Source: Arthrobacter sp. PAMC25564 (lineage in GTDB: Bacteria > Actinomycetota > Actinomycetes > Actinomycetales > Micrococcaceae). From it: DNA of 64,000 nt. Positions 5,468 through 61,042 of the stretch are shown piece by piece (the first letter of the stretch is position 1; every line of letters begins with the position of its first letter). The stretch is taken from NCBI RefSeq assembly GCF_004798705.1, contig NZ_CP039290.1, positions 496,001 to 560,000 on the forward strand, read 5' to 3'. The notes under the pieces were generated by a model. The model made no database searches. It saw nothing but the letters and a program-made list of their open reading frames with translations, and was not told where the DNA came from. Both the position numbers and the translations under genes were made by a program.

Positions 5468-5838
5468 GGTCCCCAAGTCCTCTCTGGGCGAAGTGGAGGC
5501 GCTGCGGCGCCGGGAGGATCCGAGGGGCCGTCCTCCGAGTGCTTCCAGCCTGACAGAAGTGTGACGCATGCCATATGAGGTAAATGTCCGGGTTTTGGCC
5601 GGGGTGGTATTGAGATGTTTTCGATTATCAACGGAACGTTTTATGCACTCAATTGGTAAAGGAAGGCTGCTAGCGGAAATTCGAGAGAGAAACGCCGAAT
5701 CGAGCCTGAAGGCTTTCGGTGAGCCGCTGGGCGTCGTGGCCTGTGGGCGCAGGGACCGTATCAGTCCATACGATCTGGATATGGAACGCCGGGGCAGGAA
5801 CGCTGGTACGGGTTCGGACGCGTGTATAGGCTGGCAGG
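5468..5838. other. Intergenic region between the AAHS transporter and the isomerase remnant
   Basis: No supported gene lies here. The part near 5468-5570 is the leader of the transporter. An AT-rich patch at about 5612-5660 contains TTTCGATTATCAACGG, which loosely resembles the IclR-type (PcaR/PobR) aromatic-regulator half-sites. It could hold the transporter promoter. The rest shows nothing recognisable. Confidence 0.3.
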
Positions 5839-6536
5839 ATGATCAACCGCGCACGCCTGCACTCAGACCTGTCCCGCCTGGGCAGGGAAACGGACATGTT
5901 CCTGGCCACCGTCGCGTCCTTGTCCGACGAGGAGATGACCGCGCCCTCGCTGTGCGAGGGATGGACCCGGGCCGATGTCATCGCCCACGTCGCATCCAGC
6001 GCCGCGCCCTGGTAAAGCTCATCGATTGGGCTTCCTCCGGTGAGGAACGCACCCTGTACGCCTCAAGCGAGGCCCGCTCCCAAGCGATCTCCGCCCTGGC
6101 GGCCCTGCCGCGGGAGGAGCTCATTGGAGAACTGCGGGAATCCGCCCGGAACTTTGCCGAGCAGGCCCAGCGGCTGGGCGGGGAGCTCGCAGCCCCGGAA
6201 GTGCAGGTGAGCGGCAAGACGATCCCCGCCACTTCCATCGTGGCGCTTCGAATTGCCGAGGTGGTGGTGCATCACCATGACCTCAACACTGCCTGGACCC
6301 TCGAGGAGGCCGACCCCGATTCGCTGTTGAACGCCCTCGAAGCCGTGGTGCGGTCGCTGCGTGCCAAGGGCGCCCCGGGAATGACACTCGTGACCGAAGA
6401 GCGTGACGAGTGGGTCATCGGCGACGGCGGCTTGCACGTTGTGTCCGATCGCGAGGGCCTGCTCCAGTGGCTGGCCCGCGGGGACGCCGAAAACATTGAT
6501 GTGGACGGCCCGGTGCCGGCACTGCCTTCCTGGTGA
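5839..6536 (+). pseudogene. Frameshifted maleylpyruvate isomerase-family (mycothiol-dependent) protein
   Basis: Two frames together encode one protein. Frame one starts at ATG 5839 with MINRARLHSDLSRLGRETDM and the motif LCEGWTRADVIAHVA, the N-terminal DinB-like/MDMPI signature. It hits TAA at 6013. The expected continuation (ALVKLIDWASSGEERTLYAS ...) is in another frame from about 5997 and runs to 6536, including the conserved RIAEVVVHHHDL segment. A one-base loss (or two-base gain) near 5990-6000 explains this. The family uses mycothiol as cofactor, consistent with an actinobacterium. It may be decay or a sequence error. Confidence 0.7.
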
Positions 6537-6540
6537 GCGG

Positions 6541-6663
6541 ACCGCAACGAAGGACGGTGTCAAAGCCAAGTTCGTGATCGAATGCGCCGACATCAACGAG
6601 GCCACAGACCAGCTGGCCGACGGAAAAGCCGTCCGGCAGGTCATCATGTTCAACGCCGTGGAC
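6541..6663 (+). pseudogene. Remnant of a zinc-type alcohol dehydrogenase C-terminus
   Basis: Reading from 6541 gives VKAKFVIECADINEATDQL followed by a GKAVRQVIMF-like segment. This resembles the last 40 residues of MDR (GroES-like) alcohol dehydrogenases, where D/EINEAxxxLxxGxxxGRxVL is conserved. No upstream MDR body is present: the frame upstream belongs to the isomerase remnant in another phase. I read it as a deletion scar. The match rests on a short stretch, so confidence is modest. Confidence 0.35.
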
Positions 6664-46040: not shown

Positions 46041-47078
46041 ATGCTTGAGGCAACTAAATCCCCCACATCCCTCCTGAAACCCAGCACCGACACTGGCGTT
46101 CCGGCCAATCCCGCCCTGGCCGCCGAGGCAAGGATTGCCCGCGTCGCGGTGACCGTCTTCCCGATCCTGGTGGTGCTGGCCGGCGTGGCCGGTTTCCTCC
46201 TGCCGGGCGCGTTCAAACCCCTGGCACCGGGCGTTCCGTACCTGCTGGGCATCATCATGTTCTGCATGGGCCTGACCCTGACGCCGCCGGACTTCGCCTC
46301 CGTGGCCAAGCGGCCCTGGGCCGTCGTCCTGGGCATCGTTGCGCACTACGTCATCATGCCCGGCGCCGGCTGGGTGATCGCCGTCGGCCTCCACTTGGAA
46401 CCGGAACTGGCCGTGGGCCTGATCCTGGTAGGCTGCGCCCCGTCCGGCACGGCTTCCAACGTTATGGCGTTCCTGGCCAAGGGCGACGTTGCCCTTTCCG
46501 TGGCAGTCGCCTCCGTTTCCACCCTGATCGCCCCGGTTGTGACACCGCTGCTGGTGCTGTTCCTGGCCGGTTCCTTCCTGGACATCGACGCCGGCGGCAT
46601 GGTGCTGGACATCGTCAAGACCGTGCTCCTGCCGGTGATCGCAGGCCTTTTGGCCAGGCTGTTCCTCAGGAAACTGGTGGCCAGGGTGCTGACGGCACTG
46701 CCGTGGGCCTCCGCCGTCGTGATTTCCCTGATCGTGGCGATCGTGGTGGCCGGAAGCGCCAGCAAGATCGTGGCCGCCGGCGGCATCGTCTTCCTCGCCG
46801 TGGTGCTCCACAACGGCTTCGGCCTGGGCCTGGGCTACCTCGCCGGGAAGCTGGGCCGCCTCGACGACAAGGCCCGCAGGGCATTGGCCTTCGAGGTCGG
46901 AATGCAGAACTCGGGCCTGGCCGCCACGCTGGCCACCGCCCACTTCAGCCCGCTGGCCGCCCTGCCGTCCGCCGTATTCTCGCTCTGGCACAACGTTTCG
47001 GGTGCGATCGTGGCAGCCTGGCTGGCCCGGCGCCCGCTGCGGGACGCTGAGAGGCCGGCACCCAGCCGCGGCGCTTAG
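46041..47078 (+). CDS. BASS-family bile acid:sodium symporter-like transporter
   Basis: A 345-residue protein with about 9-10 helices. The conserved BASS helix 4 block GCAPSGTASNVMAFLAKGD and the helix 9 block EVGMQNSGLAATLATAHF, which form the crossed Na+ site, are present. Bacterial members move keto acids, pantoate or other organic anions with Na+; the substrate is unknown here. The ATG at 46041 has only a weak ribosome site. It overlaps the convergent LacI gene by 4 bp. Confidence 0.9.
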   Translation: MLEATKSPTSLLKPSTDTGVPANPALAAEARIARVAVTVFPILVVLAGVAGFLLPGAFKPLAPGVPYLLGIIMFCMGLTLTPPDFASVAKRPWAVVLGIVAHYVIMPGAGWVIAVGLHLEPELAVGLILVGCAPSGTASNVMAFLAKGDVALSVAVASVSTLIAPVVTPLLVLFLAGSFLDIDAGGMVLDIVKTVLLPVIAGLLARLFLRKLVARVLTALPWASAVVISLIVAIVVAGSASKIVAAGGIVFLAVVLHNGFGLGLGYLAGKLGRLDDKARRALAFEVGMQNSGLAATLATAHFSPLAALPSAVFSLWHNVSGAIVAAWLARRPLRDAERPAPSRGA

Positions 47079-47632
47079 GCGCGCAGGCGGCTGATCAGAA
47101 TAGCGACGGCGCGCTCCGCGAAGTCTTCCTCCGCTGCGGTCCCCGCCGCCAAAACGTCGAAACCCGCGGGCTGCAGGGTGTCCGAGAAAACCAGCTGGGC
47201 GACGCCGCGCCGGGCCAGTTCCGCGAGGGTCTCGACGTCGTCGGTGTCCTCGCCGCGAACCGCCAGGATCACGCCGTCGGCACCGCCGGAGAGCATGAAC
47301 TGCCGCCAGCCCTCGCCCAGCAGGATGACCGGCTGGTACCCGTGCTGCGGCAGGAGCCGCGCTACCGCGGCGGCCAGGACCCGGTCCCGGGGGTCTTCGA
47401 GGTCAGCGACGGCGACTGCCACAAGGTCCGTCCGGCCCCGCCGCATTCCGCGGGCCGCCCGGTTGGCCACGTAGCCCAGTTCCCGGACGGCGGCATGGAC
47501 GCGGTCCTGGGTGGGCTGGCTGATCCGGGTGGTGCCGCCGGGCCGGCCGGAGAGCACGTAGGAGACGGTGGTGAGTGATACACCTGCCGACTCCGCGACG
47601 TCGCGGATGGTGGGCCTGGATCCATGCCGCAC
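47075..47632 (-). CDS. Short LacI-family regulator lacking most of the sensor domain
   Basis: A 185-residue protein from GTG 47632. The LacI helix-turn-helix TIRDVAESAGVSLTTVSYVL lies at residues 8-27 and the hinge near residue 55. About 120 residues of the N-terminal sensor subdomain follow. Full LacI proteins have about 330-350 residues, so the C-terminal subdomain is missing or replaced. The stop codon overlaps the convergent BASS gene. Whether it can bind an inducer is uncertain. Confidence 0.78.
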   Translation of the reverse strand: MRHGSRPTIRDVAESAGVSLTTVSYVLSGRPGGTTRISQPTQDRVHAAVRELGYVANRAARGMRRGRTDLVAVAVADLEDPRDRVLAAAVARLLPQHGYQPVILLGEGWRQFMLSGGADGVILAVRGEDTDDVETLAELARRGVAQLVFSDTLQPAGFDVLAAGTAAEEDFAERAVAILISRLRA

Positions 47633-47714: not shown

Positions 47715-48329
47715 CTATCCTTCACCCCATCGCGGGGTCACGTGGCGCTCATCCGGGGCCCCGTGATGGGCGCCAGGTGACCCCGCGTTGGGGTTTTCCG
47801 GGCCCCTCTTTGCCGCGAGAGCCTTGGTGAAGGCCAGCGGGCCGATGGTTTCGGGGTCTGCAGAGAGGTCGAACTGCGCCTCGTAGCCTGTGTTCAGGTA
47901 GAGGTGCTTGGCTTCGGGCTGCCGCGGGCCGGTAGTGAGGTACACAGTCCGGTAGCCGCGCGCGGCAGCCAACGCCTCGAGCTCGGCGAGCACAAACCGG
48001 GCCAGGCCACGGCGGCGGTGGGCCGAGTGCGTCCAGATCCTCTTGAACTCGGCGGTCGCGGGCCCGTGACGCCGGAATGCCCCGCCGGCAATGGATTCGC
48101 CGTTCTCCTGCACGATCAGCAGGGCGCCGTCGGGGGCCGCGAACTCGTCCGCCGGGTAGCGGCTCAGCTCCTCGGCAGCTGCCCCGGGACCGAACAGCCC
48201 GCTGTACCGGGTCTCGTACTCCCAGGCCAGCTCATCCAGGAGCGGGCGGACGCGGGGATCGGCCAGGGGCAGGTCCAAAACCGTGAGTTCCGAAGGGCGC
48301 ACGGCTGCTGGAATCGTTTGGCGGATCAT
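47715..48329 (-). CDS. GNAT-family N-acetyltransferase
   Basis: A 204-residue protein with the GNAT acetyl-CoA loop HRRRGLARFVLAELEALAAA near residue 105 and TAEFKRIWTHSAH just before it. C-terminal LYLNTGYEAQF is also typical. It starts 2 bp after the stop of the FAD protein, so they share an operon. About 24 C-terminal residues are encoded by a REP-like palindrome, so the native end may have been shorter. By analogy with S-modified-cysteine salvage operons it may N-acetylate an amino acid taken up by the adjacent ABC system. Confidence 0.85.
   Translation of the reverse strand: MIRQTIPAAVRPSELTVLDLPLADPRVRPLLDELAWEYETRYSGLFGPGAAAEELSRYPADEFAAPDGALLIVQENGESIAGGAFRRHGPATAEFKRIWTHSAHRRRGLARFVLAELEALAAARGYRTVYLTTGPRQPEAKHLYLNTGYEAQFDLSADPETIGPLAFTKALAAKRGPENPNAGSPGAHHGAPDERHVTPRWGEG
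47725..47793. repeat. REP-like palindrome, copy 1
   Basis: Arms 47725-47753 and 47765-47793 match at 26 of 29 positions with an 11-nt loop. The core CGCGGGGTCAC ... GTGACCCCGCG is shared with two other copies at 58.6 and 61.5 kb. It overlaps the 3' end of the GNAT gene. Confidence 0.85.
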
Positions 48330-48331
48330 TG

Positions 48332-50278
48332 TCAGGCCTTTTCAGAAACGGCGGCGGGCGCCCCCGCCGAGTGGTTGTCGTCCTGTGCCAGGACTTTGAG
48401 GACACGCCGTGCGAGGGCATCGTTTTCCCGGAAGGGTGCGGCATTGATGCCGGGCCGCGCGAAGGCGCCTGCCCCCCAGCCAGAGGTGCCAGGGCCGACG
48501 CCGAACACCCGGGGGCGGGGTTCGCCCAGGGGGCTGAGCAGCTCGTTTTCCCTTGATACCAGCAGACGTCCCGTCGCGTGCAGGCCTTCCGCGGTGAGCA
48601 GCTCCTGTTCGGTCCCGAGACCCGAGCCGTGCAGGTGGCGCAGCAGGGGGTTCGCGGACCGCGCCACGGAGGGTGCCGGCAGCCGTGCCTCGATCAGCGC
48701 CGTGGCGGACACGCTCACGCCGGAGCGGGCCGAGCCGGCCACGAACCGGCCCGATTCCTCGTCGGCCGAGATCTGCAGCCCGGGGCCGATGAACTCCAGC
48801 AGTCCGGCGCGGTGGATCGCGAGCATCTCCTTCAGCCGGCGCGGCGGCGGCCCGGAGTCCACGAAGCTGAAGAAGCCGTGCCACCAGCCGTGCACTGCCT
48901 GCTGGGAGCGGGCGTTCAGCCGCTCGGCCGGCACCAGGCGGCCCAGGTCCATGTAGACCCTGAGCAGTCCGTGGAAGAGGGCCAGCGTCTCGGAATGCTC
49001 CGGCCCTGTCCGCAGCCGGAGGTCGTTTTCGATGTACGCCGCCACCGCCGCCTGGACCTCGTCATGTCCGGCGAAACCGCGGCCGGCAAAGGGGTGGTCC
49101 AGCCGTTCCAGGTCCAGGTGCAGTTCCCCGTCCGGGACGGACTCGGTTACGAGCCGGACCCGTTCCGCGCTGTACCAGTCAGCCGCTGTGAAGCGTTCCG
49201 CGAACTCGGTCCAGCCGATGCTGACCCGCTCCGGATGGCCGGTGAAGAGCTCGCGGTAGTACGCGTAGCCGGCGTCCTTCGCGATCAGCGGCCAGAGCTG
49301 GCTGCGGAAATCGAGCTCGCCGTGCACCGCCAGCAGTGCCCCGACGGCGGCCGTCGTGAAAAACCTCGGGGCACCGACGGGTTCGCCGCGGAGGGTGGAG
49401 GAGATCTTGGAGTGATAGGGCACGCCGCGCCGCGATCCGGCCCAGAGGCGCGGTTCCGCGCCGGACGGCAGGTACCGCAGGCCGCCGTCGGGCGCCTCCT
49501 CGAAGCGTCCGCCCCGGCCCTCCATCAGCAGGACCAGCAGGTCAACGAACGCCAGGCCCATGCCGGAGACGATCACGTCCTGCCCGGGCGCGATTGGTGA
49601 GTAGTCGACGTCGGTGGTGTAGCTGGGTGCCGCGTGATACCCGCCGTGGCGGGCGGCGAAGTCGCCCCAGGCAGCGGACGCCGCGTCCGGCAGCGAATCA
49701 GTGTGCCCCAGGGCGGTGACCACGACGTCGGCCCGCAGCACTGCGCCGCCGGCCAGCCGAACGAGGTACGCACCGGCGTCGGGCTCATTGCCTGCCTCGA
49801 TGCCTATGGCCCAGTCCCGGTGAACCGTGACGGTGACGGCGGTTCCGAGGGCGGCGACCGCGCGGCGGAAGAACCATTCCAGGTACTTGCTCTGCAGCTG
49901 TCGGGTGGGAAACGTGGCCCCGGTCAGGGACCGCAACTGACGGACGAGTTCCGCCGGCAGCTCCTGCACATCCGTGATGGAGCCATCCAGCACACCGGAG
50001 GCCCACTCGGACAGCCCGGGACCGTCCGAGGCAGGGCCTTCGCACTGCACGGAGGAGTCGGTGAACATTGTGACGTCCGCGGCGGCCGAATTGAGCATCA
50101 GGCCAGGGTCCTGCCCGTAGCGCCAGATCCGCCCGGAGCCGGGCTCGTGCGGCTCGACCACGTGGACGTCCAGCGGTCCCTCGAAGAGTTCCGGCCGGTT
50201 GGCGGCGAGACGCTCCAGGATTCCGGCAGCGCGGGGACCCCCGCCGACAAAGACAACGGCTGGTGGATTCGCTGGCAT
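48332..50278 (-). CDS. FAD/NAD(P)-binding protein (large, NAD_binding_9 type)
   Basis: A 648-residue flavoprotein. The dinucleotide fold VVFVGGGPRAAGILERLAAN is at the N-terminus, followed by GSGRIWRYGQDPGLMLN. A second nucleotide site is near residue 240 (VIVSGMGLAFVDLLVLLMEG). It belongs to the FAD-NAD(P)-binding family whose members are mostly uncharacterised. ATG 50278 has AGGAG. It is divergent from the ABC transporter and co-transcribed with GNAT, so it probably oxidises or hydroxylates the imported compound. Confidence 0.82.
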   Translation of the reverse strand: MPANPPAVVFVGGGPRAAGILERLAANRPELFEGPLDVHVVEPHEPGSGRIWRYGQDPGLMLNSAAADVTMFTDSSVQCEGPASDGPGLSEWASGVLDGSITDVQELPAELVRQLRSLTGATFPTRQLQSKYLEWFFRRAVAALGTAVTVTVHRDWAIGIEAGNEPDAGAYLVRLAGGAVLRADVVVTALGHTDSLPDAASAAWGDFAARHGGYHAAPSYTTDVDYSPIAPGQDVIVSGMGLAFVDLLVLLMEGRGGRFEEAPDGGLRYLPSGAEPRLWAGSRRGVPYHSKISSTLRGEPVGAPRFFTTAAVGALLAVHGELDFRSQLWPLIAKDAGYAYYRELFTGHPERVSIGWTEFAERFTAADWYSAERVRLVTESVPDGELHLDLERLDHPFAGRGFAGHDEVQAAVAAYIENDLRLRTGPEHSETLALFHGLLRVYMDLGRLVPAERLNARSQQAVHGWWHGFFSFVDSGPPPRRLKEMLAIHRAGLLEFIGPGLQISADEESGRFVAGSARSGVSVSATALIEARLPAPSVARSANPLLRHLHGSGLGTEQELLTAEGLHATGRLLVSRENELLSPLGEPRPRVFGVGPGTSGWGAGAFARPGINAAPFRENDALARRVLKVLAQDDNHSAGAPAAVSEKA

Positions 50279-50538
50279 GGGGACTCCTGATCAGGACGGC
50301 ACATAATTCGGGTGGTTCAGGGCCCCATGCTAGGCACCGGCCAGGGCCCCGGTCGAGGCGCCGTTCACGGCTGTTCACCCCGCGTCACCGCGCGTAAGAC
50401 GGGGCAAGAAAACGACTCATGACGCCGCGAGAGCCCCCGTGAACGAATGCAACTTCCCGCCTTGCCGCGCCATCCGGGCGCCCCTAGATTTGCACCAATC
50501 TGAACCCCACAAACCAACCGGAAGAAGCGAGGTGGCGC
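50279..50538. promoter_or_regulatory. Divergent promoter region of the flavin/ABC cluster
   Basis: This 260-bp gap serves both operons. For the plus strand TTGCCG (50462-50467), a 17-bp spacer and TAGATT (50485-50490) make a plausible promoter about 50 bp upstream of the permease start. GTTCAC occurs twice at about 50367-50380. No regulator gene lies directly beside it. Confidence 0.45.
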
Positions 50539-51555
50539 ATGAGTTCGACAGTAACCACGATGGCGCAGACCCTGCCAGGGGACGACGGCGCCGGTCCCGT
50601 CGGCACCGGGACCGCACCGGAGTCCCGCGGGCCGGCGACCGACTACGCCGACTACCGCGTGATCACGGCCCGCCACCCGTGGCGCTGGGTAGGCACCGTC
50701 CTGGTGGCCCTCGGCGTCCTAGGCATCGCCTGGTCCCTCGCCACGAACCCGCGCTGGGAATGGGGCGTCGTCGCGCAGTGGTTCACCGCCAAGTCGATCC
50801 TCAACGGCCTGCTGGAGACGCTCAAGCTGACCGCGATCTCCGGAGCCCTCGGCTTCATCCTGGGTTTCATCCTGGCCCTGATGCGCCTGTCCGCGTCCCC
50901 TCTGCTGCTCTCCGTGTCCTGGACGTTCTCCTGGATCTTCCGCTCCACCCCGCTGCTGGTACAGATGCTGCTCTGGTACAACCTGGGCTACCTGTACGAG
51001 AAGGTCAGCTTAGGCATCCCCTTCACGGACATCCGGTTCTTCGAGGTGCAGACCACCACACTGATCAGCCAGTTCGCAGCGGCGGTGCTCGGCCTGACCC
51101 TCAACCAGGCGGCCTACTCCGCCGAAATCATCCGGGGCGGCATCCTCTCCGTGGACCAGGGCCAACTGGAGGCCGCCGCGGCACTCGGCATCCCGGCTTG
51201 GCGTCGCTCCACCCGGATCGTCCTGCCCCAGGCCATGCGGGCCATCCTGCCAACGGCCTTCAATGAAGTGATCGGTCTGGTCAAGGGCACCTCGATCGTC
51301 TATGTGCTGGCCTACTCCGAGCTGTTCTACACCGTCCAGGTCATCTACAACCGCACCCAGCAGGTGTTGCCGCTGCTGCTCGTGGCCACGCTTTGGTACG
51401 TCGCGATCACCTCGGTCCTGAGCATCTTCCAGTACTACATCGAGCGGCACTACTCCAGGGGCGCCGTCCGCACGCTGCCGCTGACACCGCTGCAGAAGGT
51501 CCGGAAGTTCCTGTCCACCCACGCCACCGACACCCGAGTGAAGGGACTCCGATGA
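50539..51555 (+). CDS. Polar amino-acid ABC transporter permease
   Basis: A 338-residue protein. The N-terminal 50 residues are disordered, then five or six helices follow. The HisM/GlnP-type permease block LTLNQAAYSAEIIRGGILSV (EAA loop: GQLEAAAALGIPAWRRSTRIV) is near residues 190-230. Its stop overlaps the ATPase start by 4 bp (ATGA at 51552). It carries both transmembrane halves as a homodimer, since no second permease gene is present. Confidence 0.92.
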   Translation: MSSTVTTMAQTLPGDDGAGPVGTGTAPESRGPATDYADYRVITARHPWRWVGTVLVALGVLGIAWSLATNPRWEWGVVAQWFTAKSILNGLLETLKLTAISGALGFILGFILALMRLSASPLLLSVSWTFSWIFRSTPLLVQMLLWYNLGYLYEKVSLGIPFTDIRFFEVQTTTLISQFAAAVLGLTLNQAAYSAEIIRGGILSVDQGQLEAAAALGIPAWRRSTRIVLPQAMRAILPTAFNEVIGLVKGTSIVYVLAYSELFYTVQVIYNRTQQVLPLLLVATLWYVAITSVLSIFQYYIERHYSRGAVRTLPLTPLQKVRKFLSTHATDTRVKGLR

Positions 51556-52370
51556 GCACCGCAGTCACGGAAGCCACCCGCGGCCTCGTGGAAATCACCA
51601 AGGTCCGCAAGTCCTTCGGGGCAGTCGAAGTCCTCAAGGGCGTCACGCTGACCGTCGAGCCCGGCGGCGTGGCAGTCATCGTCGGTCCCTCCGGTTCCGG
51701 CAAGTCCACCCTCCTGCGCACCATCAACCACCTGGAAAAGCTCGACGGCGGCTTCATCGCCATCGACGGCACGCTCGTGGGCTACGAGATCCGCGGCAGC
51801 AAACTCCACGAGCTGCGCGAAAAGGACATCCTGAAGCAGCGCACCGAAATCGGCATGGTGTTCCAGAACTTCAACCTGTTCCCGCACCTCACGGCGCTGG
51901 AAAACGTGGTGGAGGCACCCGTCGTCGCGCCGCGTTCCGGAAAGCCCCGGCTCTCGAAGGCCGAAGCCCGGGAACGCGGCCTTGAACTGCTGGACCGCGT
52001 GGGCCTGAAGGACCGGGCCGGCGCCTACCCCCGGCAGCTCTCCGGCGGCCAGCAGCAGCGCGTCGCGATCGCCCGCGCGCTGGCGCTGGACCCCAAGATC
52101 CTGCTCTTCGACGAGCCCACCTCGGCGCTGGACCCGGAACTGGTCAACGAGGTCTTGGACGTCATCCGCGAGCTCGCCAAGTCCGGCACCACGCTGATCA
52201 TCGTCACACACGAGATGGGCTTCGCCCGGGACGTCGCGGACACCGTGGTCTTCATGGACCAGGGCCAGATCGTCGAACAGGGCACCCCCCAGGCAATTTT
52301 CACCAACCCGCAGGAAGAGCGCACCCGGAGTTTCTTCTCCAAGGTGATCGAACCCGCTTTCAACATCTAA
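51552..52370 (+). CDS. Polar amino-acid ABC transporter ATP-binding protein
   Basis: A 272-residue ABC ATPase with Walker A GPSGSGKST, Q-loop FQNFNLFPHLTALENV, signature LSGGQQQRVAIARALA, Walker B ILLFDEPTSALD and H-loop VTHEM. The class is GlnQ/TcyC (PAAT). It starts at ATG 51552 inside the permease stop; the frame's upstream extension is spurious. It energises import of an amino acid bound by the lipoprotein encoded next. Confidence 0.95.
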   Translation: MSTAVTEATRGLVEITKVRKSFGAVEVLKGVTLTVEPGGVAVIVGPSGSGKSTLLRTINHLEKLDGGFIAIDGTLVGYEIRGSKLHELREKDILKQRTEIGMVFQNFNLFPHLTALENVVEAPVVAPRSGKPRLSKAEARERGLELLDRVGLKDRAGAYPRQLSGGQQQRVAIARALALDPKILLFDEPTSALDPELVNEVLDVIRELAKSGTTLIIVTHEMGFARDVADTVVFMDQGQIVEQGTPQAIFTNPQEERTRSFFSKVIEPAFNI

Positions 52371-52381
52371 GGAACTCCCCC

Positions 52382-53404
52382 ATGGCATCTTTCATCACCC
52401 CGCTCCCAGCCCGGCTGCGCAAACTCGCGGCGCTGCCCGTCGTCGCCCTCATCGGCACTCTTTCCGGCACGCTGGCGCTGAGCGGCTGCTCCGATCCCGG
52501 CGCCTCGGCGGCCGGTTCCGCGTCCAGCGGCACTGCGACAGCTGCCAAGAACGGCGTCGTCTACAACACCTCACCGGACCAGAACCGGATCCGCGCGGAG
52601 AAGGACACGGCCCTGGCGGCGAAGGTTCCCGCGCTGATCAGCAAGGACGGCAAGCTGACCGTGGCCACCACCGCCGGCTCCATCCCGCTGACCTTCCACG
52701 CCACCGATGACAAAACAACCATCGGCGTCGAGGTGGACCTGGCCCAGCTCGTCGCGGACAAGCTGGGCCTGGACCTGGACCTGCAGATCACATCCTGGGA
52801 GAACTGGCCGCTGAAGACCCAGTCCGGCGACTTCGAGGCCGTATTCTCCAACGTCGGCATCAATGCCGCCCGGGTGAAGCTGTTCGACTTCGCCAGCTAC
52901 CGCGCCGCCTACATGGGCTTCGAGGCGAAGAAGAACTCCAGCTACAACATCAAGGGCTCCGATGACATCTCCGGCCTGAAGGTCTCCGTCGGCTCCGGTA
53001 CCAACCAGGAGAAGATCCTGATCGCCTGGAACAAGGAGCTCGAGGCCAAGGGCAAGGCCCCCGCGGAGCTGCAGTACTACTCCAACGATGCCGACACCGT
53101 CCTGGCTCTTGCCTCGGGCCGCACCGACCTCAACCTCGCCCCCTACCCCACGGTCTCCTACCGCGAGAACACCCGCGATGACCTCAAGGTCGTGGGCAAG
53201 GTCAACGCCGGCTGGCCGTCCGAGACCCTCGTCGCCGCCACGACGCTCAAGGGCAACGGCCTGGCCCCGGTGATCACCGATGCCCTGAACGCGGTCATCA
53301 AGGACGGCTCCTATGGCAAGGTCCTGGAGCGCTGGGGACTCTCCGAGGAAGCACTCCCCGAGTCCAAGACCGTCACCGAGGCGAACTTCGGGACCGGCAA
53401 ATGA
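52382..53404 (+). CDS. Amino-acid ABC transporter substrate-binding lipoprotein
   Basis: A 340-residue SBP_bac_3 protein. The signal peptide ends with lipobox LSGC near residue 37, giving a diacylated Cys. The mature start CSDPGASAAGS is shared with the other binding protein at 58.7 kb. The ligand domain has GVEVDLAQLVADKLGL and VSVGSGTNQEKIL. Start ATG is 11 bp after the ATPase stop. It overlaps the next gene by 4 bp. The ligand is unknown but should be a polar or S-containing amino acid. Confidence 0.92.
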   Translation: MASFITPLPARLRKLAALPVVALIGTLSGTLALSGCSDPGASAAGSASSGTATAAKNGVVYNTSPDQNRIRAEKDTALAAKVPALISKDGKLTVATTAGSIPLTFHATDDKTTIGVEVDLAQLVADKLGLDLDLQITSWENWPLKTQSGDFEAVFSNVGINAARVKLFDFASYRAAYMGFEAKKNSSYNIKGSDDISGLKVSVGSGTNQEKILIAWNKELEAKGKAPAELQYYSNDADTVLALASGRTDLNLAPYPTVSYRENTRDDLKVVGKVNAGWPSETLVAATTLKGNGLAPVITDALNAVIKDGSYGKVLERWGLSEEALPESKTVTEANFGTGK

Positions 53405-54573
53405 GGTTCCAGGTCCTTGACATCATCCCCCACCTGAAGAACCCGGTCACCGGGGAGATTGTCTCCACCGCGGACCGGCTCAACCAGGTGGTCCAGACGG
53501 CCCGCCGAGCCGAGGAACTTGGCTACGACGCCTTCTCCGTCGGGGAACGCCACGCGGGCGAGTTCATTTCCTCCTCCCCCACCACGGTACTGGCAGCCAT
53601 CGCGGCCGTGACGTCCACCATCCGGCTGCAAAGCGGCGTAACCGTGCTGTCCGTGCTGGACCCGGTGCGGGTCGCGGAGGACTACGCCACGATCGACCAG
53701 CTCAGCCGCGGCCGGCTCGAGCTGGTGATCGGCAAGGGCAACGAGGTGCTGCAGTACCCCCTCTTCGGCCTGGACCTGGCTGACCAGTGGACGCTGCTGG
53801 CGGAGAAATACGGCCTGCTGCGGCGGCTCTGGACCGAGGAGAACGTCACATGGTCCGGGACGTTCCGCCCGGCGCTGACCGAGCCCACCACCACCACGCC
53901 GCGGCCGTTCGCCGGGGCTCCGCGCATCTGGCACGGCTCGGCGACGAGCCTGACCTCCGCGGCGCTTGCCGCCAAATGGGGCGATCCTCTGTTCACCGCC
54001 AACGCGATCCAGCCGCGCGAAAACTACAAGGTGCTGATTGACCACTACCGCGAAGAATACGAACGCCACGGCCACGATCCCCGGCACCAGTACCTGGGCT
54101 CCGGTTCCGGCGCGGGCGGGGTGTTCATCGCGGACACCACGCAGGAAGCCAAGCGCCAGTTCGGCCCGGTCTACGAGGCCCTCACCTCGGGCCGCGACGT
54201 TCCCGGCAACAACTCCCCCTACCGGGACATCGACCACGCCGTCGCCGAAGGCCCTGCCCTGGTGGGCAGCCCGGAACAGGTGATTGACAAGATCCTCAGC
54301 TACCACGAGCTCTACGGCCACGACCTGCAGTCCATCGCCCTTCCGACCACGCAGCCGTTCGAGCAGCAGCTGGAGATCCTGGAACGGTTCGCGCTTGAGG
54401 TCATCCCGGCCCTCCGCGCCGCGGCGCCCACCACGCTCTGGTCCGAGGATGATCCCTTCGCCGGCCGCCCGGAGTCCAGCCTCGCCGGCAAGTCAGGCAC
54501 CGAACCCGACGCCGCGGCCCGCGTCACTGCCGACCACAACAGCTACAGGAGCTCCCATGTCTACGCCCACTGA
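53401..54573 (+). CDS. LLM-class flavin-dependent oxidoreductase
   Basis: A 390-residue bacterial-luciferase-like monooxygenase. It has FSVGERHAGEFISSSPTTVL near residue 45 (the flavin/active-site His region) and DYATIDQLSRGRLELVIGKG near residue 90, typical of the TIM-barrel family. It uses FMNH2 from a separate reductase. The start overlaps the binding-protein stop (ATGA, 53401) and the end overlaps DUF1684 by 17 bp. Its closest role parallel is YtmO/CmoO of the Bacillus S-modified-cysteine operon; this is inference. Confidence 0.9.
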   Translation: MRFQVLDIIPHLKNPVTGEIVSTADRLNQVVQTARRAEELGYDAFSVGERHAGEFISSSPTTVLAAIAAVTSTIRLQSGVTVLSVLDPVRVAEDYATIDQLSRGRLELVIGKGNEVLQYPLFGLDLADQWTLLAEKYGLLRRLWTEENVTWSGTFRPALTEPTTTTPRPFAGAPRIWHGSATSLTSAALAAKWGDPLFTANAIQPRENYKVLIDHYREEYERHGHDPRHQYLGSGSGAGGVFIADTTQEAKRQFGPVYEALTSGRDVPGNNSPYRDIDHAVAEGPALVGSPEQVIDKILSYHELYGHDLQSIALPTTQPFEQQLEILERFALEVIPALRAAAPTTLWSEDDPFAGRPESSLAGKSGTEPDAAARVTADHNSYRSSHVYAH

Positions 54574-55426
54574 CACTGCCGGTCCCGCCGCGAGCTACGA
54601 TTCCTTCGCCACGATCTGGACAGACTGGCACGCCGCGCACGAACGCCACCGGGCGGAGCCGCACGGCTTCCTCGCCGTCACCCACCTGCACTGGCTTGAC
54701 GCCGAGCCGTCCCGCCTGGACGGGGCGCCCGGCATCTGGAGTGTGGAGAACGACGTCGTCCGCCTGGTTTTGGGGGCAGGCGAACACGTCCTCCTGGACG
54801 GGCAGGACCTGAACCCCGACGACACCGGAGCCACCGTGTTCCTCGGCCCGGTTCCCGAGCGCGACGGGCTCACCCTGCGCGTGGAGGACGCCGGCGCCGG
54901 GCACACCGTGATCGAGCTCGCCAAACGCGGCGGCCGCTATGTCGTGCGGCCGCGGCATCCCCTCAATCCGCTGCTCACCGGCTACCGCGGAACGCCCGCG
55001 TACGCACCGGACTCTAAATATTCCGTTACGGGCATATTTCTTCCGTTCGCCGAACCACGTCCCACCACCGTCGGCGCCGCGGTCGAAGGCATCCAGCACG
55101 TCTACGAAGCCTCCGGCGAGCTCCACTTCCGGCTGGCAGGCCAGGACCTGGTCCTGACCGCCTTCAACGGCCACACCCCCGGAACCCTGTCCGTGCTGTT
55201 CACCGACGCGACCTCGGGCAAGACCACCTATGCGGCCAACCGCTCGCTCACCATCGCAGCCCCCGGCCCGGACGGCACCGTCACGCTCGATTTCAACCGG
55301 GCTGTGAACCTGCCCTGCGCCTACACGGACCTGGCGACCTGCCCGCTGCCTCCGGCGGAAAACCGCCTGCCCGTGGCCGTCGAGGCCGGAGAAAAGATCC
55401 CTTACGAGCGTCAGGACGCGTCATGA
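54557..55426 (+). CDS. DUF1684-domain protein
   Basis: A 289-residue protein from ATG 54557 (MSTPTDTAGPA), preceded by AGGAG, overlapping the upstream LLM gene by 17 bp. The block GFLAVTHLHWLDAEP and the later FNRAVNLPCAYTDLATCPLPPAENRLPV are the DUF1684 hallmarks. The family has no assigned function. Being locked between two LLM genes by overlaps on both sides implies it acts in the same pathway. The next gene starts inside its stop (ATGA 55423). Confidence 0.85.
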   Translation: MSTPTDTAGPAASYDSFATIWTDWHAAHERHRAEPHGFLAVTHLHWLDAEPSRLDGAPGIWSVENDVVRLVLGAGEHVLLDGQDLNPDDTGATVFLGPVPERDGLTLRVEDAGAGHTVIELAKRGGRYVVRPRHPLNPLLTGYRGTPAYAPDSKYSVTGIFLPFAEPRPTTVGAAVEGIQHVYEASGELHFRLAGQDLVLTAFNGHTPGTLSVLFTDATSGKTTYAANRSLTIAAPGPDGTVTLDFNRAVNLPCAYTDLATCPLPPAENRLPVAVEAGEKIPYERQDAS

Positions 55427-56574
55427 GCCAAGCTTCCCAGAACCACCCCGGGCAGGGGCACGCTCTCCTGCTGCTGGAGCTCGACGGCGCCGGAGCCCAC
55501 CCGGCGGCATGGCGGGCTTCCCGCTCCCGGCCGGAGGCCGTGCTCACCCCCGCACGTCTCCGCGACGTCATCCTGGCCGCCGAATCCGCCGGATTCCACG
55601 GCGCAACGATTGCCGACGGCCGGCTCCCCGAGGGGCCGGATGCCGCTGCGCGGCTCAACGCCCTGCAGCGCGCCGCCTTTGCCGGACCCATCACGCGTTC
55701 CATCGCCCTGATCCCGGAAGTGGATACTGTCTACACGGAGCCGTTCCACATCTCCACCCAGCTCGCCAGCCTGGACTATGTCTCCGGCGGGCGGGCCGGC
55801 TGGCTCGTCGCCGCCTCGACCAGCTCCGCCGACGCCGCCGCCGTCGGCCGTGAAACGGTGCGCGGGGGCCGGCTGGCGCAGGAAGCCGCGGACGCCATCG
55901 AGGTCAGCCGCCGTCTCTGGGACTCCTGGGAGGACGACGCGGTGATCCGCGACGTCCCCACCGGGCGCTATCTGGACGTGGACAAGCTGCACTACAGCGA
56001 TTTCGAGGGCGGGAACTACGCCGTGAAGGGTCCGTCAATCGTCCCGCGGCCGCTCCAGGGCCAGCTTCCCGTGCTGGCGCCGGCGGGGCTGCTCGCACCC
56101 GAGGAGCTCGTTGCCGGGGCTGTTGATGGGCTGCTGGTCTCTGCCCCGACCCCCGAGCTCCTCTCCGCCGAACTCACGGAAACACGGGAAGCCCTCGCCG
56201 CGTTCGGCGCGGGCGCTGCGCCGGCCTTGATCGCCGAGCTCGACGTCGTCCTGGACGCCCGGGGGCAGGCTGCCGCCGAAAGGCTCGCCGCACTGGACGC
56301 GCACACACCCTGGGACAGCACGCGGGCACGCTTCCTTGGCACCGCCACCGGGCTGACCGAGCTGCTGGCCGAGGTCCTCGCCGTCGCCGACGGCGTCCGG
56401 CTGCACCCGGCCGTGCTGGACACCGACCTTGAAGAGCTGTCCCGGCTGGTGCTTCCCGAACTGCGCCGCCGCGGAATCCTGGCGCCGGTGGTCCTGGACG
56501 CCTCGTTCCGGGACCAGCTCGGCCTCGCGCGGCCGGCCAGCCGCCACGCCGCCACACCCGCCGCAGGAAACTAA
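55423..56574 (+). CDS. LLM-class flavin-dependent oxidoreductase (NtaA-like)
   Basis: A 383-residue luciferase-like protein. DTVYTEPFHISTQLASLDYV and GGRAGWLVAASTS are conserved in NtaA/SnaA/DszA-type FMN monooxygenases, and RRLWDSWEDDAVIRDVPTGR follows the same family pattern. It is shorter than the gene downstream and lacks its central insertion. The start overlaps the DUF1684 stop. It may work with, or be a diverged duplicate of, the downstream monooxygenase. Confidence 0.85.
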   Translation: MSQASQNHPGQGHALLLLELDGAGAHPAAWRASRSRPEAVLTPARLRDVILAAESAGFHGATIADGRLPEGPDAAARLNALQRAAFAGPITRSIALIPEVDTVYTEPFHISTQLASLDYVSGGRAGWLVAASTSSADAAAVGRETVRGGRLAQEAADAIEVSRRLWDSWEDDAVIRDVPTGRYLDVDKLHYSDFEGGNYAVKGPSIVPRPLQGQLPVLAPAGLLAPEELVAGAVDGLLVSAPTPELLSAELTETREALAAFGAGAAPALIAELDVVLDARGQAAAERLAALDAHTPWDSTRARFLGTATGLTELLAEVLAVADGVRLHPAVLDTDLEELSRLVLPELRRRGILAPVVLDASFRDQLGLARPASRHAATPAAGN

Positions 56575-56584
56575 GGAGAGAACC

Positions 56585-58009
56585 GTGAGCCACAATCCGT
56601 ACCCGAATCCGGCCCGGGAATCCACGCCCTCCGGGCAGCTCAGCCTGGGCGTCTTCTTCCAGGGCGTCAACTCGGGAACCATCTGGAAATCCGCTGAGTC
56701 CGGTTCCCAGACGGACTTCGAATCATTCCGGCGCCTCGCCCAGACCGCCGAGCGCGGGCTGTTCTCCGCGTTCTTCCTCGGCGAAGGGCTGCGGCTGCGG
56801 GAGCACCTCGGCCGCCCGCACGCCCTCGACGTCGCCGGCCGGCCCGATGCACAGACCGCCCTGGCCGCCCTGGCCGCCGTGACCTCGCACATCGGCCTGG
56901 TGGCCACCCAGAACACCACGTACAACGACCCGGCAGACCTGGCCCACCGGCTCTCCTCCCTGGACCTGATCTCCGGAGGCCGCGCGGCCTGGAACATCGT
57001 CACCACGGACAACGCCTGGACCGGGGCCAACTTCCGCCGCGGCGGCTACCTCGACCATGCGGACCGTTACGTCCATGCCGAGGCCTTCGTGCAAACGGCC
57101 AAGCGGATCTGGGATGCCTGGGACGAGGACGCCGTCGCCTCCTCGCCGTCGGCGGACCGCTGGGCCGCCCCCGGTGCCGTCCGCCGGGTGCACCACACCG
57201 GCCGGCACTACACCGTGGATGTCACCCCGGGGCTGCCGCGCAGCGCCCAGTACCGGCCGGTCCTGTTCCAGGCCGGGGACTCCCCGGACGGCCGTGACTT
57301 CGCCGCACGTCAGGCGGACGTCATCTTCTCGGCCCACCCGCAGCTTGAGGACGCGCTGCAGTTCCGCCGCGACATCGTCGAGCGCACGCTCAAGGCCGGC
57401 CGGGGAGCCAACGACGTCAAGATCATGCCCGCCAGCGAGTTCATCCTGGCCGCCACACCGGAGGAGGCGCTCGAGAAGAAGGCCTGGGTCCGTGAGCTGC
57501 AGATCGGCCCGCAGCAGGCCATTGCCTATCTGGAGCAGTTCTGGGGCCGCGAACTGCAGGGCTTTGATCCTGACGGGCCGCTTCCGGAGATCGACCCCGT
57601 AGTGGAGGAAACGTCCGAAACCCGCGGCAGCGGCTTCCACGGCGCCAAGGCCCGGCAGCTCGCGGACCAGTGGCGGGCCGAGGCCAAGGAGAAGGGCCTG
57701 TCCATCCGCCAGTTCGTCTCCGCGAAGACCTCCCGCGGGGACTCCACCTTCACCGGCTCCTACGCCGAGGTGGCGGACCGCCTCGCGGAGTATGCCCGCA
57801 CCGGCGCCGTCGACGGGTTCAACATTTCGCCCTGGCTCATCCCGAGCGGCCTGGATGACATCGTCAACCATCTGGTGCCCGCCCTGCAGGAACGCGGCGT
57901 GTACCCGAGTGAATACGCCGGCACCACGCTGCGGGAAAACCTCGGACTGGCCACCCCTGTCCGCCCCGTCGCCGCGGCCGAAGCCGTTGCCAACGCAGTG
58001 CGGGTCTAG
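56585..58009 (+). CDS. NtaA/SnaA/DszA-family FMN-dependent monooxygenase
   Basis: About 474 residues from GTG 56585, with AAGGAG upstream; the frame's extension to 56429 overlaps the previous gene and is spurious. The family blocks NTTYNDPADLAHRLSSLDLI, SGGRAAWNIVTTDNAW and YRPVLFQAGDSPDGRDFAA are all present. This family cleaves C-N or C-S bonds (nitrilotriacetate, dibenzothiophene sulfone, N-acetyl-S-succinocysteine). It is the best candidate for the bond-breaking step of the cluster. It ends the plus-strand operon. Confidence 0.92.
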   Translation: MSHNPYPNPARESTPSGQLSLGVFFQGVNSGTIWKSAESGSQTDFESFRRLAQTAERGLFSAFFLGEGLRLREHLGRPHALDVAGRPDAQTALAALAAVTSHIGLVATQNTTYNDPADLAHRLSSLDLISGGRAAWNIVTTDNAWTGANFRRGGYLDHADRYVHAEAFVQTAKRIWDAWDEDAVASSPSADRWAAPGAVRRVHHTGRHYTVDVTPGLPRSAQYRPVLFQAGDSPDGRDFAARQADVIFSAHPQLEDALQFRRDIVERTLKAGRGANDVKIMPASEFILAATPEEALEKKAWVRELQIGPQQAIAYLEQFWGRELQGFDPDGPLPEIDPVVEETSETRGSGFHGAKARQLADQWRAEAKEKGLSIRQFVSAKTSRGDSTFTGSYAEVADRLAEYARTGAVDGFNISPWLIPSGLDDIVNHLVPALQERGVYPSEYAGTTLRENLGLATPVRPVAAAEAVANAVRV

Positions 58010-58685: not shown

Positions 58686-59684
58686 CTACGTCTTGGGCAG
58701 GCCTGCCGGGTTGACCTCGGACTTCTTCACAGCCTCATCGCCCAGCCCCCAGCGGTCCAGGATCTTCGCGTAGCTGCCGTCCTCGATCAGGTGGTTCAGG
58801 CCGGCCGCGGCCGCGGCAGCGAAGCCATTGTCCTTCTTGCTCGTGACGGCGATGTTGGCTTTCAGCGGCCAGCCGCCGTCGACGAGGCCCACGAGCTTGG
58901 TCTTGGCGTCCGAGGCGGCCTTGAAGGCTGCCGTGGCGTTGGGGCCGAAGGTCAGGTCCGCACGGCCCGACTGGAGGGCAAGCTGGGACGCGGAGTCGTC
59001 GTCGTAGTACTGGAACTCAACCGGCTTCAGGCCGTTCTTCTTGTTCTCCTCGTCCCAGCGCAGCAGGATGGCCTCCTGGTTGGTGCCGGATCCGACGATC
59101 ACGCGCTTACCGGCGACGTCGGCCGCGGTTTCCACCTTGCCGATTGCGCTGTCAGCCTTGGCGTAGAAGCCGAGCTTGTCCTCGCGGTAGCTGGCGAAGT
59201 CGAACTTGAGCTTGCGCTCCTCCGTGACGGTGACGTTGGAGATGACGGCCTCATATTTGCCGGAGTCGACGCCGAGGGGCCAGTCGGCCCAGGCCGTGGG
59301 AACGATGTCGGCTTCCAGGCCCAGCGACTCGGCCAGTGCGACGGCGAGATCCACCTCGTTGCCGACCGGCGTCTTGTTGTCCGTGGCATAGACGGCCAGC
59401 GGTGCGGCGAAGGGGCTGACTGCCACGGTCAGCTTGCCGTCCTTTTTGATGGCGTCCGGGACAAGGGCGGCGGCGGCCTTGTCGACGGTGGCCTTCACCC
59501 GGTCCTGCTGCGGGGAAAGGTTGAAGGTCTTGACTCCGGTGGAGGAGGACGACGGCGTGGCCGGGTTGGCGCTGCCGGCGGCCGACGCGCCGGGGTCGGA
59601 GCAGGCGGCCAGGCCCAGCAGGGTGGTGGCGGCAAGAGCCACGCTGACACCGGATCTGAACGCTGTGGACGATTTTCTGGACAT
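58686..59684 (-). CDS. Second amino-acid ABC substrate-binding lipoprotein (paralogue)
   Basis: About 332 residues from ATG 59684, chosen because GGGGAG is 4 bp upstream; the upstream frame to 59756 lacks support. The signal peptide ends with lipobox LAAC. The mature start CSDPGASAAGSA is identical to that of the binding protein at 52.4 kb, and the body is clearly related (VGSGTNQEAIL against VGSGTNQEKIL). No permease or ATPase is beside it, so it may share the upstream ABC machinery with a different ligand. Confidence 0.9.
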   Translation of the reverse strand: MSRKSSTAFRSGVSVALAATTLLGLAACSDPGASAAGSANPATPSSSSTGVKTFNLSPQQDRVKATVDKAAAALVPDAIKKDGKLTVAVSPFAAPLAVYATDNKTPVGNEVDLAVALAESLGLEADIVPTAWADWPLGVDSGKYEAVISNVTVTEERKLKFDFASYREDKLGFYAKADSAIGKVETAADVAGKRVIVGSGTNQEAILLRWDEENKKNGLKPVEFQYYDDDSASQLALQSGRADLTFGPNATAAFKAASDAKTKLVGLVDGGWPLKANIAVTSKKDNGFAAAAAAGLNHLIEDGSYAKILDRWGLGDEAVKKSEVNPAGLPKT

Positions 59685-59938
59685 TTTTCTCCCCGTGGAA
59701 GTTCGTGGATTACTGCTCATGCCAGCAACTATCCGGGCTGGCCGGATGCCGGTCAAAAGGCGGTGAAACCAAGGGATACAGGGGGTAACCGCGGTTAACC
59801 CGGAGGCCTGGAAATGACCTGGGGTGGCCCAGTGTTACCGCAGGTTGCCCTCCGTGACGCGGCGGGACGAATTTCTACCCGGCGGGGCCCCGCTGCGCCT
59901 AGCCTGCTTAGAAGACCACACGAACAGGAGGGCCGGAC
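59685..59938. promoter_or_regulatory. Divergent promoter region with palindrome
   Basis: This 254-bp gap serves the binding protein (minus) and the SRPBCC gene (plus). It contains the perfect 12-bp palindrome TAACCGCGGTTA (59786-59797), with a related imperfect copy near 59834-59849. This is a candidate operator; no cognate regulator is adjacent. Confidence 0.4.
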
Positions 59939-60439: not shown

Positions 60440-61042
60440 ATGGCGACGGACCGGTACACCACCGAACAGGACCGTTTCGGCCGGCTCCTGGCCGACCGTG
60501 AGGTCTGGCGGCAGGCGGCCACCATCCCGGCGGCCGGCGAGCTGACTGCACGATGGCTGGAGGGACGCAGCCAGTATCAGCCGGGGACATCAGCTCCCGG
60601 CTTTGATGAGGAAACCCGGCCCATTGCCGGCGCGCTTGCGGGACTCAACCGGAGCGGCCTCTTCACCAAGGAATCCCAGCCCGGGGTTCTCGCCGAAGGG
60701 CACGCCCAGCGCGCTTATGTGGCCGGCTTTTGCAGTGTCGAGTCAGCGGCGGCGCTGCTGGAGTTGTCCGGGCGGACCGATCTGGTGACCGTCGCCCACG
60801 CCCCCGGCGAAGCCAGCCAGTCGTCAATCCCCGTGACCCTGCGCGATGGTGAGGTCGTGACGGTGCTGGGCAGCAGCGAGGGCCCGGTCGGCGATGATCA
60901 GCTCCGGGACTGGTCAGAGGAAGCCAACGAAAGCCTGGCGCTCGTGCTGGCAGACTCCTGGTATGTCGAGGTCTTCGACCCGGTCTGGGGACGGAATGGC
61001 GTGCTCCTCCCTGCCGTCCTCGAGGCGCTGACGGCAGGCTGA
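60440..61042 (+). CDS. DUF6919-like hypothetical protein
   Basis: A 200-residue protein, second of a two-gene unit with the SRPBCC protein. AAGELTARWLEGRSQYQPG near residue 35 and ALAGLNRSGLFTKESQPG near residue 65 match the pattern I associate with DUF6919, mostly from actinobacteria and of unknown function. The assignment is from memory of the family and is not certain. No membrane segment or signal is seen. Confidence 0.6.
   Translation: MATDRYTTEQDRFGRLLADREVWRQAATIPAAGELTARWLEGRSQYQPGTSAPGFDEETRPIAGALAGLNRSGLFTKESQPGVLAEGHAQRAYVAGFCSVESAAALLELSGRTDLVTVAHAPGEASQSSIPVTLRDGEVVTVLGSSEGPVGDDQLRDWSEEANESLALVLADSWYVEVFDPVWGRNGVLLPAVLEALTAG

Follow-up and report, generated by a model that had tools for sequence, protein, structure and literature searches.

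Bacillus subtilis salvages S-alkylcysteines by the ytm/ytn (Cmo) route, in which the substrate is acetylated, sulfoxidized by CmoO, cleaved at its C–S bond by CmoJ, reduced and deacetylated. In a second B. subtilis system, yxe/scm, S-(2-succino)cysteine is broken down by YxeK/ScmK, YxeL, YxeMNO and YxeP. The ytm cluster also carries an amino-acid ABC importer. We compared these systems with a gene cluster of Arthrobacter sp. PAMC25564 that lies in a 64,000-nucleotide stretch of contig NZ_CP039290.1 (positions 496,001 to 560,000; hereafter the window). In this cluster, genes for a GNAT acetyltransferase (GNAT) and a monooxygenase-like protein using flavin adenine dinucleotide (FAD) and reduced nicotinamide adenine dinucleotide phosphate (NADPH), termed FADN, diverge from genes for the permease (PERM), ATPase (ATPA) and solute-binding protein (SBP1) of a polar amino-acid ABC transporter. 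These are followed by genes for a luciferase-like monooxygenase (LLM1), a DUF1684 protein, a short second LLM protein (LLM2) and an NtaA-family monooxygenase (NTAA).

We propose, with a probability of roughly 45%, that the cluster is an operon for sulfur scavenging, which takes up S-substituted amino acids of the cysteine type, or mercapturates as their N-acetyl forms, and frees the sulfur oxidatively. All eight families that a first-pass annotation of the window had named here were found at the place and on the strands given, as judged by open reading frame (ORF) coordinates and domain matches. Its analogy to the Bacillus clusters for S-modified cysteines also held, as GNAT, an amino-acid importer and an NtaA-family monooxygenase resembling YtnJ occur together.

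Conservation of the gene set

Of 59 relatives, the own genome among them, 20 had a full-length DUF1684 orthologue with at least 67% identity; genomes G010 and G028 held DUF1684 only as short pieces (63–90% identity). FADN, GNAT, PERM, ATPA, SBP1, DUF1684, LLM2 and NTAA showed the same arrangement in 18 of the 20 fetched contexts, nine of which also contained LLM1, and the conservation in Micrococcaceae on which the first-pass annotation had staked its proposal was thus observed. Of the two remaining contexts, one was cut by the contig, and the other, from another family, yielded only DUF1684 and FADN with the queries used.

We then examined the best 80 of 554 loci confirmed when named genomes were scanned with an alignment of FADN sequences; these are the nearest relatives of FADN, hence the counts show conservation and not independence. 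The loci came from Arthrobacter, Pseudarthrobacter, Paenarthrobacter, Sinomonas, Kocuria, Paeniglutamicibacter, Kitasatospora, Streptomyces and other Micrococcaceae. Seven core genes (FADN, GNAT, permease, ATPase, solute-binding protein, LLM2 and NTAA) were all present in 72 loci. Of the other eight, L054 and L060 are truncated where their contigs end; the remaining six (L120, L121, L129, L130, L131 and L133) are Kocuria and Streptomycetaceae forms. GNAT was found in 75 loci, DUF1684 in 62 and LLM1 (at least 60% identity) in 49, with at least one of the 31 loci without LLM1 being cut by a contig; DUF1684 and LLM1 occurred together in 45. We regard LLM1 and DUF1684 as accessories. A second solute-binding protein gene (SBP2), which the first-pass annotation missed, lies beyond NTAA. 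An SBP2-type label was assigned in 30 of the 80 loci, although in L131 and L133 it fell on the transporter's own solute-binding protein; the association of SBP2 with the cluster is likely, not constant.

The cluster neighborhood is not due to chance, and its genes were also compared across the class. Among 296 genomes, 37 encoded FADN-like proteins at an E value of 1e-60 or better in 44 places, and 20-kb contexts were taken for 40 of these (G000, G002, G304 and G098 were excluded). At FADN scores of at least 356 bits, 17 of 19 contexts contained at least one partner gene (LLM2 in 13, NTAA in 9, DUF1684 in 8), and L172 and L179 contained none. In the 21 contexts with FADN scores of at most 308 bits, LLM2, NTAA, GNAT, DUF1684, PERM and SBP were searched for and none was found; a weak SsuD-like match was seen in L196. 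The partner genes of the cluster follow one FADN clade.

This distribution bears on a further explanation, namely that an actinobacterium simply has the S-alkylcysteine pathway already known as the ytm/yxe/yha type and that FADN and DUF1684 are passengers unrelated to it. The Arthrobacter cluster does share GNAT and monooxygenase genes with the Bacillus clusters (excerpt of PMC12757645) and an ABC importer with yxe (PMC9706529). However, passengers would not be expected to divide as observed (partner genes in 17 of 19 close-clade contexts; LLM2, NTAA, GNAT or DUF1684 in 0 of 21 distant ones), nor does the recurrence of DUF1684 beside NTAA or LLM2 in distant actinobacteria fit this explanation. 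In addition, in agreement with the first-pass annotation, no linked M20 deacetylase was found among the 14704 ORFs of 140 loci (leave-one-out control 9/10), a set that includes the 21 distant-FADN contexts and some genomes present twice under different locus identifiers. We therefore consider the passenger explanation highly improbable.

Compared with ytm/ytn, the Arthrobacter cluster shares GNAT, an amino-acid ABC importer, an NtaA-family monooxygenase nearest to YtnJ and, in part of the strains, an LLM; it differs in having FADN fused to or beside GNAT, a degenerate LLM2, DUF1684, no linked M20 gene and an inconstant LLM1. GNAT, an ABC importer and a flavin monooxygenase are shared with yxe/scm, whereas an M20 deacetylase and any sign of a succinyl substrate are lacking. 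Since a linked deacetylase was sought and not found, we do not file the cluster with those of Bacillus; it is most likely a variant parallel to the CmoO/CmoJ route.

In Streptomyces-type genomes (L173, L174, L177, L181–L186 and L188), the cluster lies beside common flanking genes and varies in content. The flanks comprise a major facilitator superfamily-like gene, a gene with an acyl-CoA dehydrogenase-like start and, in several, a DUF5685-like gene. The cluster in these genomes resembles an exchangeable cassette.

FADN, NTAA, LLM2 and DUF1684

Among solved structures, the sole relative of FADN by sequence was the L-aspartate N-hydroxylase of Streptomyces sp. V2 (8cp2, 301 bits), with homology over nearly the full length. 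In this enzyme the substrate occupies an arginine/asparagine chamber, N413E abolishes hydroxylation and a sulfate is bound in the substrate site; FzmM, CreE and PcxL are named as N-hydroxylases of the same family (excerpt of PMC10404684). Reading the residue correspondence by eye, we found R13, W51 and N62 of 8cp2 conserved as R16, W52 and N63 in FADN, which also keeps the R577 equivalent (8cp2 numbering). In contrast, R266, R409, R412, N413 and R416 correspond to K291, R440, M443, D444 and R447 in the window. The R266 position is K in all 99 clustered-side rows and R in 19 of 21 distant rows; on the Micrococcaceae side, the R412 position is M in 72 of 76 rows and the N413 position is D or E in 73 of 76, the latter being mostly Q in Streptomyces-type rows. 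The Asp-binding stretch DLRNExR is absent from the FADN subfamily, whereas four printed rows of distant homologues read DLRNE[VI]R as in 8cp2 and, counted column by column, this stretch fits 18 of the 21 distant rows with a shift of one alignment column. In a tree of 61 rows, one branch (support 98/91; recovered in 98% of bootstrap trees) set the clustered FADN rows apart from the others, with three unlabelled rows inside the clustered side and several rows on long branches. FADN also differs from the aspartate N-hydroxylases in its genomic company. Because the Asp-binding residues are replaced, this class-B monooxygenase homologue probably acts on a substrate other than aspartate.

Outside the clustered clade, 21 contexts (L187 and L190–L209) contain FADN homologues, most of them with the Asp N-hydroxylase stretch. 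These are candidate producers of nitrosuccinate or 3-nitropropionate.

FADN and GNAT were fused in 11 of 120 listed FADN homologues and also in L045, where they form a single ORF of 825 amino acids (4124-6601, minus strand). As they are fused in some strains, the two proteins likely perform consecutive steps, the order of which is not given by the fusion. This coupling fits the pathway proposed below, and it fits equally well the main rival explanation, hydroxylation followed by acetylation. In the latter, FADN would N-hydroxylate an imported amino acid, GNAT would acetylate the resulting hydroxylamine to a hydroxamate-like product, and LLM2–NTAA would cleave or further oxidize this product for nitrogen use, detoxification or biosynthesis. 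Hydroxylation and acetylation are paired in hydroxamate siderophore pathways, and some NtaA-family enzymes cleave C–N bonds. An example of the latter is nitrilotriacetate (NTA) monooxygenase (excerpt of PMC7661421), and the characterized homologues of FADN (8cp2, FzmM, CreE and PcxL) are N-hydroxylases. However, FADN lacks DLRNExR and forms a clade of its own, a point that excludes aspartate more than N-hydroxylation itself.

The identity of NTAA also speaks to this question. A profile of 12 NTAA sequences was compared with 23 sequences of solved structures, YxeK not being among them. YtnJ, which we take to be CmoJ, scored best (353 bits), 30 bits above 3sdo, a protein named NTA monooxygenase (323), followed by NtfO2 (317), DszA (311), long-chain alkane monooxygenase (242), riboflavin lyase (241), dimethyl sulfide monooxygenase (232), ethylenediaminetetraacetate (EDTA) monooxygenase (208) and SsuD/MsuD-type entries (52–66). 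The first-pass annotation had named firm clustering with nitrilotriacetate or siderophore enzymes as refuting its proposal; a grouping with NTA and EDTA enzymes was not seen by profile score, but 3sdo ranks second. CmoJ, a homologue of YxeK and DszA, cleaves the sulfoxide of an N-acetyl alkylcysteine, giving an aldehyde and a sulfenic acid (excerpt of PMC10863075). The nearness of NTAA to a C–S enzyme (YtnJ over EDTA monooxygenase), together with sulfur-type neighbors in a few distant clusters, argues against the N-hydroxylation explanation, which we consider somewhat unlikely.

LLM2 and NTAA together recall NtfO1–NtfO2 (7E36), in which NtfO1, without a lid, pairs with the FMN-binding NtfO2, whose flavin mononucleotide (FMN) site includes F56, A58, T101, T133, H151, Y155, Q203 and F222 (excerpt of PMC8027225). 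With the correspondence read by eye, each of nine NTAA rows kept seven of these eight residues, A58 being G in seven of the nine, whereas each of nine LLM2 rows kept none or one; 80 alignment columns were absent from all nine LLM2 rows. The two genes were on the same strand and at most 400 bases apart in 83 of the 85 loci containing both (120 examined), and in the remaining two, 453 and 489 bases separated the matched ends. As in NtfO1–NtfO2, a short lidless LLM adjoins an NtaA-family FMN enzyme, and LLM2 and NTAA match chains A and B, respectively, among others. In contrast, NtfO1–NtfO2 hydroxylates a polyketide, and LLM2 scores 3sdo and YtnJ above NtfO1. Given the lost FMN site, the adjacency to NTAA and this likeness, LLM2 is probably a non-catalytic partner of NTAA, with which it may form a heterodimer. 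The description of the cluster as built around three LLM-type flavin enzymes was therefore not upheld: LLM2 lacks the FMN-site residues, LLM1 is inconstant, and the constant extra oxygenase is FADN.

DUF1684 carries a Cx7C motif (C254, C262) that was invariant in our alignments. The Haloferax member HVO_1043 was assigned to a thiol-relay group on its Cx7C (excerpt of PMC9426492), and the Halobacterium protein Q9HRE7 (4fj4) was crystallized with mercury; unlike these, the member in the window is encoded within an operon for amino-acid import and oxygenation. LLM1 and DUF1684 form one ORF in L048 (9806-11836, minus strand) and P0024; the two genes may be fused there, or their overlap may contain a frame error. 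A second DUF1684 gene of the own genome (L226:5198-5968, minus strand) has neighbors that, judged by gene starts, are NifS-type desulfurase-like, NAD biosynthesis-like and LLM-like.

Sulfur context and the proposed route

Sulfur-related genes adjoin some distant clusters. In Streptomyces bauhiniae (L133), the cluster lies next to a gene of the TauD family, which scores 297 bits against a cut-off of 313 with the taurine dioxygenase model, to ABC genes of the taurine type (solute-binding protein 214 of 304 bits) and to an LLM gene resembling SsuD/SfnG (204 of 510). A TauD-family gene stands beside LLM2 in Kocuria L120 (213 of 313 bits), and L180 encodes a SufS-like protein (272 of 475 bits), a GST_C_2 protein and a peptide/nickel-type solute-binding protein. 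Pfam cut-offs were reached and the quoted NCBIfam equivalog or subfamily cut-offs were not, so that these are family-level hints.

Such neighbors might also indicate that the cluster removes the sulfonate group from amino acids such as taurine, cysteate or homocysteate, without thioether cleavage. The SsuD/SfnG-like LLM was present in 6 of 25 loci compared, TauD-like genes occur in L133 (with Tau-ABC-like genes) and L120, and the sulfate in the aspartate N-hydroxylase site (excerpt of PMC10404684) suggests that a relative could accept sulfonated Asp analogues. However, the SsuD-like and TauD genes lie outside the conserved Micrococcaceae arrangement, NTAA is far closer to YtnJ than to the SsuD/MsuD-type entries, and the importer is of the amino-acid type; this alternative is very unlikely.

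We favor thioether-sulfur scavenging because the NTAA profile scores best on YtnJ, with the CmoJ chemistry acting on N-acetyl alkylcysteine sulfoxides; because TauD-, Tau-ABC-, SsuD/SfnG- and SufS-like neighbors occur in some distant clusters; because the own genome encodes a mycothiol S-conjugate amidase (462 bits, over the cut-off), an enzyme that releases N-acetylcysteine S-conjugates into the medium (excerpt of PMC4267739); and because DUF1684 recurs in 8 of the 19 FADN-clade contexts, with one relative assigned to a thiol-relay group on its Cx7C and another crystallized with mercury. In the proposed route, the substrate would be imported by SBP1/SBP2-PERM-ATPA and N-acetylated by GNAT. 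FADN, physically coupled to GNAT, would S-oxygenate the N-acetyl thioether with NADPH and O2, and an LLM2–NTAA heterodimer, supplied with reduced FMN by an unlinked reductase, would break the C–S bond of the sulfoxide as CmoJ (YtnJ) does. The sulfenic acid would then be reduced, perhaps by the Cx7C protein DUF1684, and cysteine freed by an unlinked deacetylase. The own genome has seven M20 matches elsewhere, and none of the four positions listed is near the cluster. In some strains, LLM1 may widen the substrate range. Nothing points to S-(2-succino)cysteine in particular. Mercapturates are a plausible substrate pool; the full recycling scheme, in which N-acetyl-S-conjugates shed by the amidase are taken up again, S-oxygenated by FADN as a new, single-component branch of class-B flavoproteins that some strains fuse to the acetyltransferase, and cleaved by a CmoJ-like heterodimer with a dead LLM, the sulfenic acid being reduced by the Cx7C of DUF1684, is quite unlikely.

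Several observations weigh against the sulfur-scavenging proposal. Its weakest link is the chemistry of FADN, as the characterized relatives we met hydroxylate nitrogen. Within 20 kb, NTAA was lacking in 10 and LLM2 in 6 of the 19 close-FADN contexts; L170, L171 and L131 have neither LLM2 nor NTAA and combine FADN, GNAT and ABC genes with an SsuD-like LLM, perhaps as a variant with cleavage by this SsuD-like enzyme. LLM2 occurs without NTAA in 4 of 13 contexts (L174, L175, L181 and L183), which speaks against an obligate heterodimer, and H151 of the FMN site is R in both Streptomyces NTAA rows. The TauD-like and desulfurase-like neighbors are confined to few loci. Each of three Bacillus clusters carries its own M20 deacetylase gene (scmP, yhaA and ytnL; excerpt of PMC12757645), and the cluster described here has none. 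Flavin reductases of PF01613, the one reductase family sought, are likewise unlinked, the seven of the genome lying at least 460 kb away. PERM, ATPA and SBP1 all score below the NCBIfam equivalog cut-offs (cystine models: 134/300, 315/406 and 69/312). Finally, the divergent region contains, as read by eye, −35/−10-like elements on both sides with repeated GTTCAC/GTCAC boxes between them, kept in most of 75 loci and weaker in Sinomonas, Paeniglutamicibacter and a few others; the box was found at no second site of the own genome within three mismatches and therefore gives no evidence of a sulfur regulon.

Two Gordonia genes, related to NTAA at the level of the NtaA family, were expressed when fluorotelomer compounds served as sulfur source but not on sulfate (excerpt of PMC7661421).

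Gene layout and implications

Table 1. Features of the cluster in the window; scores are in bits.
Feature	Position	Strand	Evidence
GNAT, N-acetyltransferase	47715..48329	-	PF00583 50
FADN, FAD/NADPH class-B monooxygenase-like, aspartate N-hydroxylase homologue	48332..50278	-	PF13454; PDB 8cp2 301; own clade
Divergent promoter region	50279..50538	.	Alignment of 75 intergenic regions
PERM, polar amino-acid ABC permease, cystine-like	50539..51555	+	Best NCBIfam match cystine permease 134 (below cut-off 300)
ATPA, polar amino-acid ABC ATPase	51552..52370	+	EhuA 319 (cut-off 345); TcyN 315 (cut-off 406)
SBP1, solute-binding protein family 3	52382..53404	+	PF00497; NCBIfam StpK7 72, cystine solute-binding protein 69 (cut-off 312), both below cut-off
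LLM1, luciferase-like monooxygenase near CE1758/Atu2307 families, accessory	53401..54573	+	TIGR04036 269 (below cut-off 479)
DUF1684 protein, accessory; N-terminal FHA-like domain and PF07920	54557..55426	+	PF07920 155; alignments; model and fold comparison
LLM2, short NtaA-like protein without FMN site and lid	55423..56574	+	TIGR03860 166 (below cut-off 280); alignment
NTAA, NtaA/DmoA-family monooxygenase dependent on reduced FMN, GTG start	56585..58009	+	TIGR03860 383 (above cut-off 280)
SBP2, second cystine-like solute-binding protein, related to SBP1	58686..59756	-	Cystine solute-binding protein 87 (cut-off 312)

The starts of ATPA, DUF1684 and NTAA were chosen within longer ORFs (Table 1). 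ATGA overlaps, which had been claimed for most joints, are present at three of the six plus-strand joints (PERM/ATPA, SBP1/LLM1 and DUF1684/LLM2), so that "most" was too generous. LLM1 and DUF1684 overlap by 17 bases, the genes at the two remaining plus-strand joints lie 11 and 10 bases apart, and FADN and GNAT are spaced by 2 bases.

A short LacI-family protein of 185 amino acids, matched in its DNA-binding domain and shorter than full regulators, adjoins GNAT (47075-47632, minus strand). It was found beside GNAT at 65–76% identity in 6 of the 80 loci, all near relatives; in five other loci, LacI genes occurred only elsewhere, at 40–43% identity. Downstream of the cluster lies a gene for a DUF6919 protein (60440-61042, plus strand; 273 bits), neighbored by an ABM-domain gene and by a gene with weak likeness to polyketide cyclases; DUF6919 is also near the cluster in a few relatives.

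These results advise caution in annotating FADN-type proteins as nitrosuccinate makers and LLM2-type proteins as active monooxygenases. They offer a testable function for three uncharacterized protein groups that accompany one another in common soil actinobacteria: the FADN branch, the degenerate LLM2 and DUF1684. If mercapturate recycling were true, it would give DUF1684 its first function and, to our knowledge, the aspartate N-hydroxylase family its first S-oxygenase. If the sulfur-scavenging proposal is correct, the cluster would supply a missing part of sulfur recovery from S-conjugates in bacteria that use mycothiol.

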